29,033 nucleotides of DNA. Origin: a virus. Made by a program: the position numbers and the translations under genes. Under the pieces are notes generated by a model, which saw only the letters and a list, made by a program, of their open reading frames with translations, had not been told where the DNA came from and made no database searches. The first letter of the stretch is position 1, and each line of letters begins with the position of its first letter. The stretch is from positions 1 to 29,033 of the IMG/VR virus record IMGVR_UViG_3300002144_000083; one strand, given 5' to 3'. This document shows, in pieces, positions 883-12,093 of this stretch.

Positions 883-903
883 TTTTATTGTGCTCCAATA
901 AAA
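883..903. terminator. Possible weak bidirectional terminator hairpin
   Basis: TTTTATTG and CAATAAAA form a perfect 8-bp inverted repeat around a 5-base loop, placed exactly where the plus-strand gene (stop at 878-880) and the minus-strand tape-measure gene (stop at 885-887) converge. The stem has a single G-C pair and no long T run follows it on either strand, so it would be a weak terminator or an RNA 3'-end stabiliser. Confidence 0.35.
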
Positions 904-2504
904 TCAAATCTACTGCCACCATTAAACATATCTTGTGCAGAAAGCTCTTGATCTATAACAATACCACCAGAATTAACTGTGGTATTGTTATTATTATAAG
1001 TTCTTGCATCAAGAAGTTGTTGCTGAAACTTTTCTAGATCTTGTCTTTTTTCATTAAGATTGCCTAATTGTTTTGCAGTATCATAGTCAATTCTTTCTAA
1101 TGCAACTGCTGTTCCGCTGCCTCGAGAATTAACTCTAGATTCCGCCTTTGTTAAAAATCCATCAATTCCCATAGCATAAGAAAGACCATCGCCAACTCTG
1201 GCTTTTACCTTTTGTAAAGATGCTAATAATATGGAATCAGGAAGACCAGCGATCCAATCACCAAACTTAATAAACCCTGTTTTTAATTGTGCTATTGCAA
1301 GGATCCATTCCTTTTCTAATTCTAAACCAATCTTTGTTGGCATTGTCATAAACCATATAGCTAGATTTTCCATCGAAGCCATAAAATTATTTTTAATCCT
1401 ATCGTATATGCCTGCTAACATACCTGGAATGTCGAGATCTTGTAATGTCTCTAAACCAAATCCTAATTTTTCATTAAAGAACTTTTTAATACTTGTCCAT
1501 TTTTCAGAAACAAAACCAGTCAGATTTGTCCAACCAATACCAATGGTATCGGTTGCCCACGTAAGTTTTTCATTAAACCAAGTTTTTACATCTTCCCATT
1601 TTTCAGACACATAATTAGTTAGATTTGTCCAACCTTCTGCTATCTTATCCCCCGCCCAAGAAAATAAACCCTTTACCCACACAATAGCTTCATCAACTTT
1701 TGTTGTGATCCAGTCTTGTAGTTTGAATGCTGGTGCGCCTTCTTCTGACCAGCCAAATAATCCTCTTATAAAACCTATTGCTATATTGACAGGCGCAAAG
1801 ATTATGTCTGTTAGTTTACCCAACAAACCAAGCGCCGTTTTGTCTTCTTCGCCAAAAGAGAATAGATCAGTAACCACTTTAACTGCTTCTTTCAAACCAA
1901 GAAACAGTTTTGCTATAATTTTATTAAACTCTTCTGTGAAACTGAAATCCTTCAATATATCTGCTTCTTTATCAAACCCCATCTTTTTTAGCAGCCAAAC
2001 AATACCGTCTTTGATAAGATCAAGTGGAATAGTAACAACGGAGTTGAAGAATCCAGTAACAGCTTTTTCTAGGCCATCCCAGATATCGCCATTTGCAAAT
2101 GATTCCCAACTAGCACTGATTGCGCTAATAGCGCCAATGATAATAGTAAGTGGCAAAAATAGCTTAGTACCAAATCGTGCAAATTTTAAAATGCTTTTAC
2201 CAATCTTACCAAATGTCGCAACAATTCCTGTTAACCAAGATGTCATGTTTGTAAAAATACCAAGTATCGAATCCAAAATCGATATTCCAGTACCTTTTAT
2301 TACGCCTTTATCTAAAACATTTTGTACCAAGCCAGAACCGCCTTTTTTAGCTCTTGAGCTTTTGAGCTTTTCTTCTAGACTGTCTCCGCCTTTAGGAGTT
2401 AACACATTAATCAGTTTTGAAAGATTACTAGAAGTCTTTTCACTAGTTACATTATTTTTCTTGAGTTGTGCTACAACATCTTGTAATGTTACTGTATTTG
2501 CCAT
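885..2504 (-). CDS. 29: gp29-like tail tape-measure protein
   Basis: This 539-residue protein is close in size to T4 gp29 (590). It is mostly helical and amphipathic, has a hydrophobic stretch (FLPLTIIIGAISAISA) near residue 120, and carries a contiguous tandem duplication of 33 residues (EGWTNLTNYVSEKW and IGWTNLTGFVSEKW units), as is common in tape measures. It lies directly after gp26 and the putative frameshift chaperone, the universal place of a tape-measure gene. Its ATG immediately follows the TAA of that frame (TAAATG), suggesting translational coupling. A tape measure fixes tail length, fills the tube lumen and is ejected ahead of DNA. The C-terminal region is rich in Asn and Gly and has no recognisable lytic domain. 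The assignment rests on composition and context more than on direct motif identity. Confidence 0.75.
   Translation of the reverse strand: MANTVTLQDVVAQLKKNNVTSEKTSSNLSKLINVLTPKGGDSLEEKLKSSRAKKGGSGLVQNVLDKGVIKGTGISILDSILGIFTNMTSWLTGIVATFGKIGKSILKFARFGTKLFLPLTIIIGAISAISASWESFANGDIWDGLEKAVTGFFNSVVTIPLDLIKDGIVWLLKKMGFDKEADILKDFSFTEEFNKIIAKLFLGLKEAVKVVTDLFSFGEEDKTALGLLGKLTDIIFAPVNIAIGFIRGLFGWSEEGAPAFKLQDWITTKVDEAIVWVKGLFSWAGDKIAEGWTNLTNYVSEKWEDVKTWFNEKLTWATDTIGIGWTNLTGFVSEKWTSIKKFFNEKLGFGLETLQDLDIPGMLAGIYDRIKNNFMASMENLAIWFMTMPTKIGLELEKEWILAIAQLKTGFIKFGDWIAGLPDSILLASLQKVKARVGDGLSYAMGIDGFLTKAESRVNSRGSGTAVALERIDYDTAKQLGNLNEKRQDLEKFQQQLLDARTYNNNNTTVNSGGIVIDQELSAQDMFNGGSRFDFIGAQ
1464..1661 (-). repeat. 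Tandem 99-bp (33-residue) duplication inside the tape measure
   Basis: Two directly abutting 99-bp units occupy 1563-1661 and 1464-1562. Their products share 21 of 33 residues by my alignment, including the blocks GWTNLT, VSEKW and FNEKL. The duplication keeps the frame. Confidence 0.85.
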
Positions 2505-2690
2505 TTATTGCCGTGCTTCTTTTCTGTTCTGTTCTTCGGTTTTTAGATAGTCAATTAATAAAGAAATATAAACTTCACGCTCCCATGGTATCATTTCGTC
2601 TATCTCACTTAAACTATATTTATGGTGCTGCATTAGAGAAAAATTAGTTTGGAAGTGAGTTGATAAATCATTGTGAGATAGACATACTAG
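2505..2690 (-). CDS. Tail assembly chaperone extension, reached by -1 frameshift from gp26 (gpGT-like)
   Basis: A 61-codon open frame lies between the gp26 stop and the tape-measure ATG, in the -1 frame relative to gp26. It reads LVCLSHNDLS through MQHHKYSLSEIDE and IPWEREVYISLLIDYLK to a charged EARQ end, and its TAA abuts the tape-measure ATG. It has no start codon near its beginning. The in-frame ATGs (2631-2633 and 2592-2594) lack a convincing Shine-Dalgarno sequence. The TTTTTTC heptamer at 2690-2696 would join it to gp26 to give a 295-residue fusion alongside the 234-residue short form. This matches the lambda G/GT tail chaperone layout upstream of the tape measure. The long form may stand in for T4 gp51, which was not found as a separate gene. 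The family is inferred, not matched by search. Confidence 0.7.
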   Translation of the reverse strand, partial: LVCLSHNDLSTHFQTNFSLMQHHKYSLSEIDEMIPWEREVYISLLIDYLKTEEQNRKEARQ

Positions 2691-3391
2691 AAAAAACTTT
2701 GCATACCTTGCAATTTAATATTGTTATTATGTTTACATTCAACGCATTCAAATTTCACATCATGCGATAATGCAGGCATAGATTCGACAAACTTTTGAAG
2801 TTTATCAAACTGTTCTCTGTTCATTGATTCGATAAATTCTTGAATTTCTTCTGCAGTTTCATCGTTAAGATCAATTCTTTCGTCGCCTGTATGAATAGCA
2901 GATAGACATGATCTTAAAATAGAAAACACTTGATCGGTCGTATTAGATGATTCTGGACCAATTTTAACCAAATCTAAGAATGAGGGCCATTTCATTTCAA
3001 TACTAATATTCTCATCTATTTCAAGAAATGTGTCTAGTTTAGGAACTTTCATCTCTAAACTATCTAAGTCAATTTTTACTTCATTTTGTTCTTTACATTC
3101 TTCACAATTAACACCAACAGTAGATGTTTCGCCTACTGATTTTGATCTAAGTTTAGTAAACATATATTCAACATCAAATGTAGCAAGCGATTCTTTGTTT
3201 ATTCCATTCTCAATACAAGCATCTAGAGTATCAACAATGGCATTTAACATTTGAATGTTGTCGTTAGATTCCATTGCAATCATTAATACCTTCTCTTCTT
3301 TTACAAGAAATGGCCTAAATCTTACTGCTTGTTGGGTAGAAGGAACAACCATATTATATTTTGGTGTTCCATTAATTTTAGGTAGTGCCAT
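2687..3391 (-). CDS. 26: gp26-like baseplate hub or tail assembly chaperone protein
   Basis: This 234-residue protein resembles the T4 base-plate family that includes gp26 (208 residues in T4). The N-terminus MALPKINGTPKYNMVVPSTQ and the FRPFLVKEEKVLMIAME segment are typical. Two CxxC pairs (C96-C99 and C216-C219) could form a zinc site. The region from about 135 to 205 is helical (WPSFLDLVKIG, REQFDKLQKFVESMP). A good Shine-Dalgarno (AAGGATGA) precedes the ATG. The gene sits between the gp19-fold tube protein and the tape measure. It ends in Phe-Phe on a slippery heptamer, so it probably makes both this short form and a C-terminally extended form. gp26 is needed for hub assembly in T4; a role as tape-measure chaperone is inferred. 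Confidence 0.8.
   Translation of the reverse strand: MALPKINGTPKYNMVVPSTQQAVRFRPFLVKEEKVLMIAMESNDNIQMLNAIVDTLDACIENGINKESLATFDVEYMFTKLRSKSVGETSTVGVNCEECKEQNEVKIDLDSLEMKVPKLDTFLEIDENISIEMKWPSFLDLVKIGPESSNTTDQVFSILRSCLSAIHTGDERIDLNDETAEEIQEFIESMNREQFDKLQKFVESMPALSHDVKFECVECKHNNNIKLQGMQSFF
2690..2696 (-). promoter_or_regulatory. Programmed -1 ribosomal frameshift site T TTT TTC
   Basis: On the minus strand the gp26 frame reads AGT TTT TTC TAG, giving a perfect X XXY YYZ slippery heptamer immediately followed by the gp26 stop codon. Slippage by one base back continues as TTT TTT CTA GTA TGT into a 61-codon open frame. A weak Shine-Dalgarno-like AAGG lies at 2706-2709, nine bases upstream, where internal Shine-Dalgarno elements can stimulate frameshifting. 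I see no strong downstream hairpin. Confidence 0.7.
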
Positions 3392-6818: not shown

Positions 6819-8180
6819 ATGCCAGATCCCGCAGATCAAAGCCAATACATAATTGAACGTATTGATTTAACAACAAATAGACTTGATTTAGATGAAGTTT
6901 TTGATATTAGAAAATCGGTTGTTGAATTAAATATATACGAGAATATTGAATTGCCGTATCTGACGGGCACGATAGCTATGGTAGATGATGTGGCATTTAA
7001 AAGCACGATCGGTATTAAAGGTACCGAAAGAATTGTGATTGGATTAAAGGCTACAAAAAATTCACCAGTGCTTACTAAGAATTTTATGATTACAGGAATC
7101 AAAAGAGAAGTTTCTGTGAATGAAAGAACTGATGTTAGAGTGCTTACTTTAATTGAAGAACATGCTTATTTGAGTGCTATTCAAAAAATTAGTCAAGCAT
7201 ATACTGGTAGACCATCAGTAATCATAGAAAGCATACTTACTGGGCATCTTGGCAAGTATTTGGAATCTTTTTCTAATGAAGCTGTTCAAAATAAAATGAG
7301 AGTAATAATTCCTAATTGGAATCCATTACAAGCTGTTGATTGGTTAAGAGATAGAATGGCTTTTAGTAATGGTAGCCCATATTTTCTTTTTTCGACATTA
7401 AGAGACAATCTCATTCATTTAAGTGATCTTGATTTATTAATGGCAGCTGATGCTTGGAACGAAAAGAATGTTTATACCTATGGTCAAACTTCTCACAATT
7501 TTACATTAGATTCAAAAGATCAGGCACGAAAATTGTTTCATGTCAAATCTTATAAAGCAATTAATATCGAAAGCACATTAAAGATGGCGCAGAGTGGTGC
7601 TGTTGGATCTAAATTTGAAGTTATGGATTTAACTTCTGGTGATCAATTATTTGGACAAGACAATTTTCATTCTGGTAAAGAAACTCTAAATAATTTTATT
7701 AATACAGCGCTCAATAAATCAGAAAATACTTCATTTGGATTTGATGACAGTCTATTGATTGGAGCATTAGAATCAAAAGAGATTAGTAGTTATCCATCAA
7801 GAGTCTTTAGTTCTGTTGTTGCGTCTAGACAATTCTATGAAGATGATGATAATAAAGTGCCAATGTCTGGATATCATGATGAGAATGCAAATGCTAATAT
7901 GTACAAATTAAAAATAAAATCTGCGGCACTTAGATCTATTTTAACAAATAATATGTTTTCTATTTCTGTTCCGGGGCAACCATATCTATTAGATGCTAAT
8001 GCTGGTGTTGGTTCAACAATAAAATTAGACTATGCACAGCCAACATTAGATCCAAGAAATGCCAGATCAGTTGATAAAAATAGATCAGGTAAGTTTTTGG
8101 TCTATAGAGCAAGACACAAATTTGCTGAAGGTCTATATGATACTCATATGGATATCGTAAAACTAACAGGATCAGTATAA
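6819..8180 (+). CDS. 27: gp27-like baseplate hub subunit
   Basis: The 453-residue protein opens with YIIERIDLTTNRLDLDEVFD and a strand ELPYLTGTIAMVDD, as in phage hub proteins of the gp27/gpD type. MRVIIPNWNPLQAVDWLRDR (about residues 160-180) is the characteristic helix of the second tube-like domain, followed by PYFLFSTLRDNLIHLSDL. The C-terminal SGKFLVYRARHKFAEGLYDT is the closing hub strand. In T4, gp27 (391) forms the trimeric ring that bridges the tube to the gp5 spike. The gene is directly followed, with a one-base overlap, by the gp5-like gene, the same functional pair as in T4. Sequence identity to T4 is low, but order, size and motifs agree. Confidence 0.8.
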   Translation: MPDPADQSQYIIERIDLTTNRLDLDEVFDIRKSVVELNIYENIELPYLTGTIAMVDDVAFKSTIGIKGTERIVIGLKATKNSPVLTKNFMITGIKREVSVNERTDVRVLTLIEEHAYLSAIQKISQAYTGRPSVIIESILTGHLGKYLESFSNEAVQNKMRVIIPNWNPLQAVDWLRDRMAFSNGSPYFLFSTLRDNLIHLSDLDLLMAADAWNEKNVYTYGQTSHNFTLDSKDQARKLFHVKSYKAINIESTLKMAQSGAVGSKFEVMDLTSGDQLFGQDNFHSGKETLNNFINTALNKSENTSFGFDDSLLIGALESKEISSYPSRVFSSVVASRQFYEDDDNKVPMSGYHDENANANMYKLKIKSAALRSILTNNMFSISVPGQPYLLDANAGVGSTIKLDYAQPTLDPRNARSVDKNRSGKFLVYRARHKFAEGLYDTHMDIVKLTGSV

Positions 8181-9298
8181 TGAAAGCAATAAGTACTGAA
8201 TACTATGGTGATGAAACCAGATGGTTTATGGGTGAAGTCAAATCAACTTCAGATCCTGATAAGCTTGGTAGATTGAGAGTAAGAATTTTTGGCTTACATA
8301 CTGGTGATACGTCTAAGATTAAAGACACTGATCTGCCTTGGGCAAATGTCGTTCTACCTGTTACTCAAGGTGGTACGTCTAATACAACCCAGCCTACTGG
8401 TATCCAAAAAGGCGCTAAAGTATTTGGTATATTTGTTGACGGTAAACAGTCGCAGGTACCTTTGGTACTAGGATCAATTCCTCATAATCCAACTTTTAGA
8501 GTTAAATTTGATGGACCAACAGACGCATTTGTTTCTCCTACTTCCGCAAAACTTATACCACAGCATAAAGCTGGTGATAAAATTACAGCATCCATTGGTA
8601 AAAGACTATTAGATTCTGGTGTTGATCCAGGTAAAGTGGGTACACCTTTAACACAAACACAAGCGACAGCGCTTAATGGTGTTGTTGCTGGATCAGGTAA
8701 TATCAAAGCTGATCTAATAGGACAAGGCAGACAAGAACAGACATATAATTTTCTAAAAGAGTATTTTCAAAAAAGAGGGCATAATAATCCTGGATTTGTT
8801 GCTGCCGCATTTGTCGGCAATTTTATAAATGAATCGTATCCTAATTTAGATCCATCAACTGGTGAAAAGAACCCATTAATTCCAGGCAGTAGAGGCGGTT
8901 TTGGTATTGCTCAATGGACTGGCCCTAGAAGAGTTGCGCTAGAAAACTTTGCGGCACAACATAATGCTGATGTAGCAAATCTTGCACTACAATTAAATTG
9001 GACAACTTATGAATTAGAGGATAAACTGAGTTATGTTTATACATACTTACAAGAAGATCAGACAATAGAGTCTGCAACAGAAACCGTATTTGCTCACTAT
9101 GAGAATCCTCAAGTTTCGGTAGACTTTAGAACACAAAATGCAGAAGTAAAAACCTGGAGAATATATCAAAGAGCTGGCGGTATTGCCAATTTTTTAAGAA
9201 CAAACTCACAACAAAGTACATCAATTAGATCATATAAACAAGAATATGAAGAGAGACTTAGTGATGCAAAAGCTGTATATAATGCGTATGGGGGCTAA
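8180..9298 (+). CDS. 5: gp5-like hub protein with OB domain and tail lysozyme
   Basis: Residues 14-105 form the OB fold of gp5/VgrG spike proteins (RWFMGEVKSTSDPDKLGRLR, DLPWANVVLPV, GAKVFGIFVDG, QVPLVLGSI). A linker of about 80 residues leads to a C-terminal tail-lysozyme domain (about 185-335) of the Phage_lysozyme2 type, with FVAAAFVGNFINES, where E218 is the likely catalytic acid, and GFGIAQWTGPRR. It would cut peptidoglycan glycan strands during penetration. T4 gp5 (575) has a different lysozyme (T4L-like) and carries the needle on the same chain. Here the beta-helix is missing and is found two genes downstream. The start ATG overlaps the gp27 stop. Confidence 0.85.
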   Translation: MKAISTEYYGDETRWFMGEVKSTSDPDKLGRLRVRIFGLHTGDTSKIKDTDLPWANVVLPVTQGGTSNTTQPTGIQKGAKVFGIFVDGKQSQVPLVLGSIPHNPTFRVKFDGPTDAFVSPTSAKLIPQHKAGDKITASIGKRLLDSGVDPGKVGTPLTQTQATALNGVVAGSGNIKADLIGQGRQEQTYNFLKEYFQKRGHNNPGFVAAAFVGNFINESYPNLDPSTGEKNPLIPGSRGGFGIAQWTGPRRVALENFAAQHNADVANLALQLNWTTYELEDKLSYVYTYLQEDQTIESATETVFAHYENPQVSVDFRTQNAEVKTWRIYQRAGGIANFLRTNSQQSTSIRSYKQEYEERLSDAKAVYNAYGG

Positions 9299-9301
9299 TT
9301 T

Positions 9302-10681
9302 ATGGCAACATTAACAGCTATTAATTCTAGACTAAAGAACCTTTCGGTAGTATCAGGGTTTGATAAACTTGCATCACAAGCAATTACTATTGCCACATCA
9401 GTACAAGCTCTAAATTCTTCTAGTCTCGGTATTACTCTTAATGAGAACATCAGTGGTGTCCAATCATTAAACACTACGATAAACTCAGCATACGCAATTG
9501 GCTTACTGACTAAGAATCTTACTGGTCTACAAAGTCAAGTTGTAAAAGATGTAAGTGGTTCTAAAACACAACTAGATGCTATTACAGGAGCAACAGTTGA
9601 TAACGCCTTTTTGGACTTTGTATTTGCAAGTGCGACGGCAGAAGGCATAAAGTCTGCTATCAATACAGTTGCGACTCCATCAAATCAACAATTAAATACC
9701 ATTCTAACTAACGTGGTGCCTAAACAATTCTCTGGTCAAGTTTCCGATCTTGTGACCAAAAACTTTACTCAATTTTCTTCAGAATTAACTTCTGCCGTAT
9801 CATCATTTAGTGGAGCATTTAGTGATATACTAGGGTCTGCTACAGGAAATATTTTACAAGATATTATTCTACAGACAGATACTGGTCCATTAAACATAAT
9901 TCAGAATCTTGGTATTTCATCAGCCGCATCTGGGCATTTTTTAAATTTATTACAAACAGAAGGCATAGCCAAAGCTGCTATTAGTATAGCTGCACTAACT
10001 GGTAAATCTATTACGGATATTGAAATTGCTTTAGGATCTGTACCACTATCTCTGAGTTCACAGATTCAAAAAAGAAATGTATCTGCATCAACAACTGGCG
10101 TATATGACGTATCAAGTAAAAACAATGAGTGGAATGGCGCTAGCACTCCAGATAATTATTTTGATATTATTGCAACACAAGAACATTTGATGATTGAGTT
10201 GATTAAGTCTTCAAGAGAGATTACCGAAGTTGTGTTTTTTGGTCACGAAATGACTGAAGATCAGATTTTAACATCAAAAGAAATACACAAATCATATATC
10301 GCTGATGGTAATGATGGTATTCCTTTTCATTATACAATTTTGCCTAATGGTAATCTACAAAGAGGTAGAGCATTGTCTCGTGAAGGAACCTTCTCTACCA
10401 CACATAATAAATACTCTATAGGCGTAGTAATACCACATGTTAAAAATTCGCCTGCTACAACTAAGCAAGGTGAAACAGTGAAACTATTTCTTGAAGCTTT
10501 CTATCAAGTTTGGCCAGGGGGTCAAGTGTTTGATGCAAGACTAGACACAGATAATTCATCAGTTCCTGTTGGTGTGAATATTACCAATTATGTTTCATTA
10601 TTTAAAAAGATTAATTATGGTAGTGCTGCAAGATCGTTTTCTACTCAACAGTTAATTGCTGCATCACAAGGAAATGTATAA
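9302..10681 (+). CDS. Hub-associated protein with amidase_2/PGRP-like C-terminal domain
   Basis: The 459 residues split in two. Residues 1 to about 270 are Ser/Thr/Ala-rich, low-complexity and probably helical (repeated TNVV/ITNV-like and SALSS-like stretches). Residues about 290-440 resemble N-acetylmuramoyl-L-alanine amidase type 2 domains: ITEVVFFGHEMTEDQ with H315, then IPFHYTILPNGNLQRGR with H343 and Y344, and THNKYSIGVVIP with H368. The usual final GHRD...CPG segment is represented by FDARLDTDNSSVPVG, without the expected His and Cys. An amidase fold is well supported by motif order, but activity is doubtful. The gene lies between lysozyme and needle genes, so the product is probably part of the puncturing device or hub. 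Confidence 0.7.
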   Translation: MATLTAINSRLKNLSVVSGFDKLASQAITIATSVQALNSSSLGITLNENISGVQSLNTTINSAYAIGLLTKNLTGLQSQVVKDVSGSKTQLDAITGATVDNAFLDFVFASATAEGIKSAINTVATPSNQQLNTILTNVVPKQFSGQVSDLVTKNFTQFSSELTSAVSSFSGAFSDILGSATGNILQDIILQTDTGPLNIIQNLGISSAASGHFLNLLQTEGIAKAAISIAALTGKSITDIEIALGSVPLSLSSQIQKRNVSASTTGVYDVSSKNNEWNGASTPDNYFDIIATQEHLMIELIKSSREITEVVFFGHEMTEDQILTSKEIHKSYIADGNDGIPFHYTILPNGNLQRGRALSREGTFSTTHNKYSIGVVIPHVKNSPATTKQGETVKLFLEAFYQVWPGGQVFDARLDTDNSSVPVGVNITNYVSLFKKINYGSAARSFSTQQLIAASQGNV

Positions 10682-12093
10682 TGTCAACTAAAAACGTTGA
10701 AAATCTGACAAGTAGATCTACTCTTCAAGGTAGCGGTCAAGTTGCGACCTCTGGAAAAATTACTCAAGGTTTTGGAGATCAGACAGGCATTCATCCTGCT
10801 CCAGGCAGTGAAGGTGAACCGACTACTAATAAAGGTGGCAAACTATTAAATACTTTTGGTGCTCCAATTCCTGATGATACAATTCAAGGTAATGAAGCAG
10901 AGTATGGTCAAGTATATGAATATGCGACACCTCAAGGTCACGTTATTGAATATAACGACACTAGTTCATCTGAAAGAATTATGCTTAGACACAAGTCTGG
11001 CACAGGTATCAATATTGGACCAGATGGTTCTATTATCATCTCGTCTAAAAGAAGAGTAGATGTTGTTAACGAAGATTATATTTTATCTGTAACTGGTGAT
11101 GGTAAGTTATCTTTTCAAGGCAATCTATCATTAAGTGTCACTGGTGATTTTAATGTTGATGTTGGCGGTGAATTTAAGGTGACTTCTCAAAAGAAAACAG
11201 AGAGAGTTAATGGACCATCTACTACAACAATTTATGGTGATGAGCAAAATATTGTAACAGGAAACCAATCAAATATTGTCACTGGAGGTGGCTTTGTTCA
11301 ATATCTTGAGGGTCTTAATACTATAGTAAAAGGCGAAACAAGATATGCTGTTGAAGGGGATTTCACTATAGCAAACTCTGGTGTTCTTACTATGACAGCC
11401 CAACAAGAGATCGTATTAACATCACCAGAAGCTAACATTGCCGCTAATAATCTATCCGTGTTTGGTTCAACAGGCACTATTGGTGGTGATAATATTATCG
11501 CTTATGTAAAAAATATCTATGGCACATCAAGCACATTTACTGCTGGTGTTACTGCGCCCACGTTCCATGGAGACTTAGATGGAACTGCCGCACTAGCAGT
11601 AACTTCAGATAATACTAATCATCAGAACTATGATGACCCTCCTGGTGCTCATGGCGGTGGAGGAGGAGTTGGAGCTCCTGTTGGATATAGTGTAACTGAT
11701 ACAGCAACCGATATTACTGCAACCGCACAACCTACAGCTGCTATTATGACAGATTATCAAACGAAAGGCTCTAAAGGAGTTCGTAAGGTAGTTATTGATC
11801 CTGATAATATTATTAAAAATAATATTAATTTAACAAAAAAAACTGGTGGGGTGACAAATAAAGAATTGGATGGTGCTCAGATTAGAGCCAAACTAAGAGA
11901 TCCTGCTCACAGAAATAATTCTGAATTTATTACATTTGCTCTATCTCAAGGGTTATTATCTCCTGATTATGCGAAAACATCTCCTCCTAATATTTCTAGC
12001 ATCGAAGATACTTCTAATATTGTTATTCAAGGTCAGACTACGATGGGTAGCCCTTCGCCAGCACTCACCTCTAAAAGAATAAGAGCTGTATAA
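10681..12093 (+). CDS. Beta-helical spike/needle protein (gp5 C-terminal-like)
   Basis: The 470-residue protein has a central repetitive beta-helix (about 95-260) built of short strands: GINIGPDGSIIISSKRRVDV, DYILSVTGDGKLSFQGN, LSLSVTGDFNVDVGGEFKV, TTTIYGDEQNIVTGNQSNIV. This matches the needle part of T4 gp5 and VgrG-type spikes. The N-terminus has an OB-associated look (GQVYEYATPQGHVIEYND, SERIMLRHKSGTGI). After the helix comes PPGAHGGGGG near residue 320, then a distinct C-terminal region (about 380-430, ELDGAQIRAKLRDP and FITFALSQGLLSPDYA) that I cannot name. The needle is thus a separate polypeptide from the OB-lysozyme protein. The product would trimerise as the membrane-piercing tip. 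TAATG overlaps occur at both ends. Confidence 0.8.
   Translation: MSTKNVENLTSRSTLQGSGQVATSGKITQGFGDQTGIHPAPGSEGEPTTNKGGKLLNTFGAPIPDDTIQGNEAEYGQVYEYATPQGHVIEYNDTSSSERIMLRHKSGTGINIGPDGSIIISSKRRVDVVNEDYILSVTGDGKLSFQGNLSLSVTGDFNVDVGGEFKVTSQKKTERVNGPSTTTIYGDEQNIVTGNQSNIVTGGGFVQYLEGLNTIVKGETRYAVEGDFTIANSGVLTMTAQQEIVLTSPEANIAANNLSVFGSTGTIGGDNIIAYVKNIYGTSSTFTAGVTAPTFHGDLDGTAALAVTSDNTNHQNYDDPPGAHGGGGGVGAPVGYSVTDTATDITATAQPTAAIMTDYQTKGSKGVRKVVIDPDNIIKNNINLTKKTGGVTNKELDGAQIRAKLRDPAHRNNSEFITFALSQGLLSPDYAKTSPPNISSIEDTSNIVIQGQTTMGSPSPALTSKRIRAV

Follow-up and report, generated by a model that had tools for sequence, protein, structure and literature searches.

A probable -1 frameshift giving short and long tail-assembly chaperones from gp26 of marine T4-like phages

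In a marine T4-like myovirus, the gp26 gene for the tail-assembly chaperone (TAC) very likely uses a -1 frameshift to produce a short and a long form of its protein, a pair that T4 carries as two paralogous genes. The analysis concerns a viral DNA of 29,033 nucleotides (IMG/VR record IMGVR_UViG_3300002144_000083, hereafter the window) and its relatives. Judged from sequence, gp26 very probably makes two tail-assembly proteins in the window phage and in nearly all single-copy relatives examined. The sequences show the site, the -1 frame, their conservation, the coding constraint, the codon constraint on both flanking signals in the family and the homology to both T4 proteins, whereas we infer slippage itself, its rate, its stimulation by the flanking signals and the chaperone function.

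The gp26 locus in the window

The features of the locus are collected in Table 1. The window gp26 matches PF12322 with 208.5 bits (gathering score 24.5), and its ORF ends in ATG CAA AGT TTT TTC TAG on the minus strand. An earlier note, made from the letters of this DNA, had described a perfect heptamer against the gp26 stop, a -1 frame open for 61 codons whose TAA touches the tape-measure ATG, and predicted products of 234 and 295 residues. The heptamer, the frame and its junction with the tape-measure gene all lie where they were described, and both sizes agree with the frames. The -1 frame starts with CTA GTA TGT, counted from the C that ends the heptamer, terminates with TAA at 2507-2505 and remains open for 8 further codons upstream. 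The same note had seen no start codon bearing a Shine-Dalgarno (SD) sequence in this frame. Consistent with this, a scan of the window's -1 frame finds no start codon before codon 20, and the ATG at codon 20 lies within the conserved domain and has an SD energy of +2.0 kcal/mol, equivalent to lacking an SD, compared with -6.7 kcal/mol at the start of gp26 itself.

Table 1 Features of the gp26 locus in the window
Feature	Position	Strand	Evidence
gp26 / TAC-N, short form, 234 aa	2687..3391	minus	PF12322 E=1.3e-61; phrog_150; AlphaFold pLDDT 87
Slippery heptamer T TTT TTC (putative)	2696-2690	minus	Sequence; family conservation
Zero-frame stop TAG, directly 3' of heptamer	2687..2689	minus	Sequence
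-1 frame extension, 61 codons + TAA; gp51-type C-domain of predicted long form (TAC-NC, 295 aa)	2505..2690	minus	phrog_634 E=8.6e-27; pN/pS 0.215
Tape measure protein	885..2504	minus	phrog_58 E=1.4e-7; ATG (2504-2502) abuts -1 frame TAA
SD-like element AAGGT, first base 13 nt upstream of heptamer	2705..2709	minus	Family peak; codon-level selection in family
Downstream helix, 5' arm TGTCTATCTCAC	2673..2684	minus	0/5000 synonymous draws as high
Downstream helix, 3' arm GTGAGATAGACG	2597..2608	minus	Pairs with TGTCTATCTCAC

X XXY YYZ occurs 37 times and T TTT TTN four times in the 9393 codons of the window, and one heptamer alone is therefore unremarkable. What is remarkable is the conservation of the heptamer together with the open -1 frame across relatives. 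Readthrough of the TAG was also considered and is ruled out, since the conserved domain sits in the -1 frame. Elsewhere in the window (8180-12093), a gp5-like hub/lysozyme module is apparently spread over several ORFs, comprising 8180-9298 (gp5-type N-terminus, phrog_430), 9302-10681 (amidase) and perhaps 10681-12093.

Conservation of the site and coding constraint

The sample of 393 sequences combines IMG/VR entries, GTDB contigs and annotated phage records. Among the 366 complete loci with a single PF12322 copy, 360 carry an in-frame T TTT TTN no more than 9 codons from the gp26 stop, and each of these 360 loci has a -1 frame that stays open for 48-77 codons. The six exceptions to the exact heptamer consist of five variants and one masked sequence (L379). 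One variant has G for T (L338), and what follows its site is almost identical to the sequence in L307, whose site is intact; another reads G TTT TTT (L351). In the remaining three phages (L388-L390), one of them a member of Ackermannviridae, CTTTTC or GGTTTTC stands in place of TTTTTTN, the latter being the site of phage T7 gene 10. A diverged -1 domain (phrog_9633) is found downstream of gp26 in L388, L389 and L390. Six gp26 loci (L358, L364, L369, L370, L373 and L381) are located on contigs assigned to archaeal MAGs (Euryarchaeota, Nitrosarchaeum), which are likely misbinned phage contigs.

Codon usage at the site was compared in 205 representatives, less than 80% identical in the -1 domain and drawn from the motif-bearing loci (98% of all). 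The codon before the site ends in T in all 205 (background about 0.33-0.75), and the first Phe codon is TTT in all 205 (background 0.69), with log10 P of about -49 and -42, respectively, values that are uncorrected for phylogeny and apply to motif-bearing representatives only. The seventh base varies freely and is C in 214 of the 360 sites. Tandem re-pairing on X XXY YYZ predicts just such a combination of an invariant T and TTT with a free seventh base.

The -1 frame itself evolves as a coding sequence, with 1220, 638 and 2368 substitutions at codon positions 1, 2 and 3 and a pN/pS of 0.215, against 1.06 and 2.40 in the other (control) frames. Conservation of both heptamer and downstream frame, with synonymous-biased changes, is what the earlier note had named as support. 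The observations that it named as counter-evidence did not materialize: early stops are absent from the -1 frame in 360/360 loci, no loss of the heptamer was found in close homologues, and a separate start with an SD is not the rule among relatives.

Fold of gp26 and function of its products

When the modelled window gp26 (pLDDT 87) is searched with Foldseek, the HK97 TAC (2ob9_A) ranks first by probability (0.93) among the PDB matches, with a weak E of 0.24 and a TM-score of 0.50 by target. This fold match, made with a predicted structure, supports the TAC assignment of gp26, short of proof. Sequence comparisons of single sequences, which have low power, show no similarity to lambda gpG and gpT, and none was detected to P2 E'. 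P2 GpE (PF06528) matches the -1 domain over only 11 columns (E 0.13), which falls short of sequence homology. In addition, a PDB sequence search with the gp26 profile and a PDB search with the gp51 model both returned no match.

In the preferred reading, the gp26 products are chaperones. Alternatively, the frameshift may be real and its products structural proteins of the baseplate hub rather than tail-length chaperones, as database names and older T4 genetics, which put gp26 in the hub, would have it. We regard this as unlikely, because PMC3004832 counts gp26 and gp51 among the hub assembly chaperones and reports that gp51 is missing from the particle, the gene adjoins the tape measure, and the HK97 TAC fold match points the other way, as do the title of Vladimirov 2022 and the papers citing it.

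Relation to T4 genes 26 and 51

The earlier note had proposed that the long form perhaps replaces gp51, and the results bear out a link between them. The -1 frame product matches phrog_634, a family named after gp51, and its 61 residues in the window align with the C-terminus of T4 gp51. T4 gp51 contains PF12322 over residues 1-201 followed by the C-domain in a single frame, whereas T4 gp26, the product of its divergent neighbour, has PF12322 alone. T4 possesses two PF12322 genes, in line with the separate genes 26 and 51 that the note mentioned, and gp51 is a two-domain protein that joins a gp26-like domain to this C-domain, a feature that the note had missed. Two PF12322 copies are present in 13 T4-type loci and one copy in all other loci. 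The 3' end of T4 gp26 was inspected and has no slippery site (GAG TTC TTT GAG).

In a quick, unrooted tree with long branches, gp51, split gp26 and the frameshift forms fall apart from one another; the tree, in which the truncated gp51 ORF of L100 bears a gp26 label, is used solely for this separation and not for the timing or manner of the split. A joint alignment of gp26, gp51 and C-domain sequences placed the C-termini wrongly and was left out of the analysis. On these comparisons, T4-type phages use two genes for what others would make from one. The frameshift is likely the older state, as it is widespread in other tailed phages. Two side observations concern the T4-type genes. In a T4-like contig (L100:3501-4246) the gp51 ORF is interrupted after about 126 codons, and T4 gp26 weakly matches (E 9e-4) the gp28 family (phrog_1140; L091:6849-7382 and L091:4303-4929), so that gp28 is possibly another remote paralog of gp26/gp51.

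The downstream frame could also be a separate small gene 'gp51', translated either from a start codon of its own or by ribosomes that reinitiate once past the gp26 stop; it is annotated as its own CDS in many cyanophages, most database annotations imply as much, and in 48/205 representatives an ATG occurs close to the beginning of the -1 frame. However, 131/205 representatives have no start codon in this frame by codon 6, only 8/205 combine such a start with an SD of -5 kcal/mol or below, and the first start in the window is the SD-less codon 20 inside the conserved domain. Moreover, T4 gp51 has both domains fused, and a separate gene leaves the invariant T TTT TTN and the helix unexplained. 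We consider this explanation very improbable.

SD-like element and downstream RNA helix

Two signals that the earlier note did not describe flank the heptamer. Words resembling an SD show a family-wide peak 12-15 nt upstream of the heptamer, where the window has a weak element (-4.0 kcal/mol). Codon choice in the family favours this element, with GAG preferred over GAA (odds ratio 5.0, p 1e-15) and an SD pairing z of -1.02 at the element vs +0.06 at other such sites in gp26. Since codons are chosen for SD-like pairing, the signal is not merely an effect of the conserved Glu-Gly.

Downstream of the heptamer, the folding energy relative to synonymous-codon draws has a mean z of -2.29, compared with -0.48 and -0.46 in gp26 controls (109 sequences less than 60% identical; Wilcoxon p 8e-14). 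In the commonest form of the helix, the 5' arm lies 6-7 nt after the heptamer. A helix score of at least 20 is reached by 49.5% of 190 alignable sequences vs 4.3% of synonymous draws, the registers having been identified on the same sequences that were later used to count them. The 3' partner differs by clade, being formed by the PWERE codons in 56 sequences, by register 71 in 15, and by the SEID codons in the clade of the window. The helix of the window, TGTCTATCTCAC paired with GTGAGATAGACG around a loop of about 64 nt, is not equalled in strength by any synonymous draw (Table 1). It is kept in close relatives, and L062 and L045 show a G-C to C-G double change at one outer pair.

When the partner is slid as a control, 64.5% of cells are paired in the commonest register vs 38-61% in the slid positions, which gives this register moderate backing. 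In a global covariation map of the 190 sequences no helix stands out cleanly, since registers vary between clades and the clades have common ancestry; the per-sequence synonymous test was used in its place. An Rfam search of window 2400-2900 found no match. Both flanking signals exceed the synonymous-codon expectation in the family, and both would stimulate slippage. We lean towards reading them as parts of a three-part cassette of marine T4-like TAC genes (SD-like element, T TTT TTN and helix), in which the helix would have been rebuilt repeatedly, with its 5' arm fixed ~6 nt after the heptamer and 3' coding partners that differ by clade, and in which termination of the long form may also feed translation of the tape measure, tying their amounts.

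Transcriptional slippage, in which RNA polymerase would slip on the T run and an extra base in the mRNA would fuse the frames, is hardly credible. Runs of 7-9 T at 125/360 sites would suit it, but 235/360 sites, the window included, have six T only, compared with the runs of nine on which bacterial polymerase slips according to a review; the seventh base is commonly C, and the RNA helix and SD-like element point to the ribosome.

Proposed mechanism and implications

In the proposed mechanism of ribosomal frameshifting, most ribosomes would halt at the TAG and release the 234-residue short form (gp26, TAC-N). A minority would be delayed by pairing of the SD-like sequence with 16S rRNA and by the RNA helix ~6 nt downstream. 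In these ribosomes, both tRNAs would shift back by one base and re-pair on T TTT TTC; the reading of 61 more codons would then give the 295-residue long form (TAC-NC), with the gp51 domain as its C-domain. If lambda G/GT is a guide, the short form in many copies and the long form in few would bind to the tape measure and bring in tail-tube subunits. A point against the mechanism comes from a review, according to which U_UUU_UUA and U_UUU_UUU shift far less readily in E. coli than A_AAA_AAG does, a comparison that does not include TTTTTTC.

A tape-measure-type ORF starts between -30 and +12 nt from the -1 stop in 164/194 loci. With the two positions so close, translation of the long form and of the tape measure may be coupled. 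The tape-measure start at window 2504 has almost no SD (-1.7 kcal/mol).

The TAC genes of T4-like phages have been known since the 2022 work of Vladimirov, Gautam and Davidson (PMID 34826709). As reported by papers citing that work, some T4-like phages have one short and one fused long TAC gene (PMC10885494), and poly-T sites act as signals for -1 shifting in the TAC-N genes of this group (PMC12846349). The gp26 frameshift thus belongs to a known kind. A literature search, with most subscription papers outside its reach, found no description of this SD-like element or helix, and the stimulatory cassette may be new. The present reading would correct hundreds of marine phage records, in which the small annotated 'gp51' would be the end of a frameshifted gp26 and not a separate gene, and would offer a large and diverse natural set for the study of how -1 frameshifting is stimulated in bacteria. 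A review describes G-T frameshifting as conserved 'except T4' (PMC5009743). This exception would then be a lineage that has the pair as two genes, with many T4-like relatives keeping the frameshift.

Comparison with known systems

The earlier note had recognized the layout of lambda G/GT, and the locus shares with it an in-frame X XXY YYZ near the end of the short gene, an open -1 frame, and the tape measure immediately downstream. As in lambda, -1 slippage towards the 3' end of a short gene, itself the immediate upstream neighbour of the tape measure, would yield a short and a long chaperone. The two systems differ in the heptamer, and no sequence similarity to gpG/gpT was detected. In the E. 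coli dnaX cassette, an SD-like element lies upstream of the homopolymeric heptamer A AAA AAG, a compact hairpin follows a few nt downstream, and slippage leads to a shorter product. The gp26 family shares with dnaX the upstream SD-like element (at the family level), a homopolymeric heptamer and a stem a few nt downstream; however, the heptamer here is T TTT TTC, the helix encloses a ~64-nt loop, and slippage would lead to a longer product.

The TAC locus of the Vandenendeviridae phage Adele (PMC12846349) resembles gp26 in its contractile-tail context, a conserved poly-T -1 site at the 3' end of TAC-N and an open -1 frame, but it belongs to another family and its motif is given as GTTTTT. The T4-like TACs of Vladimirov 2022, as described in citing papers, likewise have short and long forms. 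In T4, the products of genes 26 and 51 would be equal to the short (gp26) and long (gp51) forms of the window, and they are encoded instead by two divergent genes without a slippery site.
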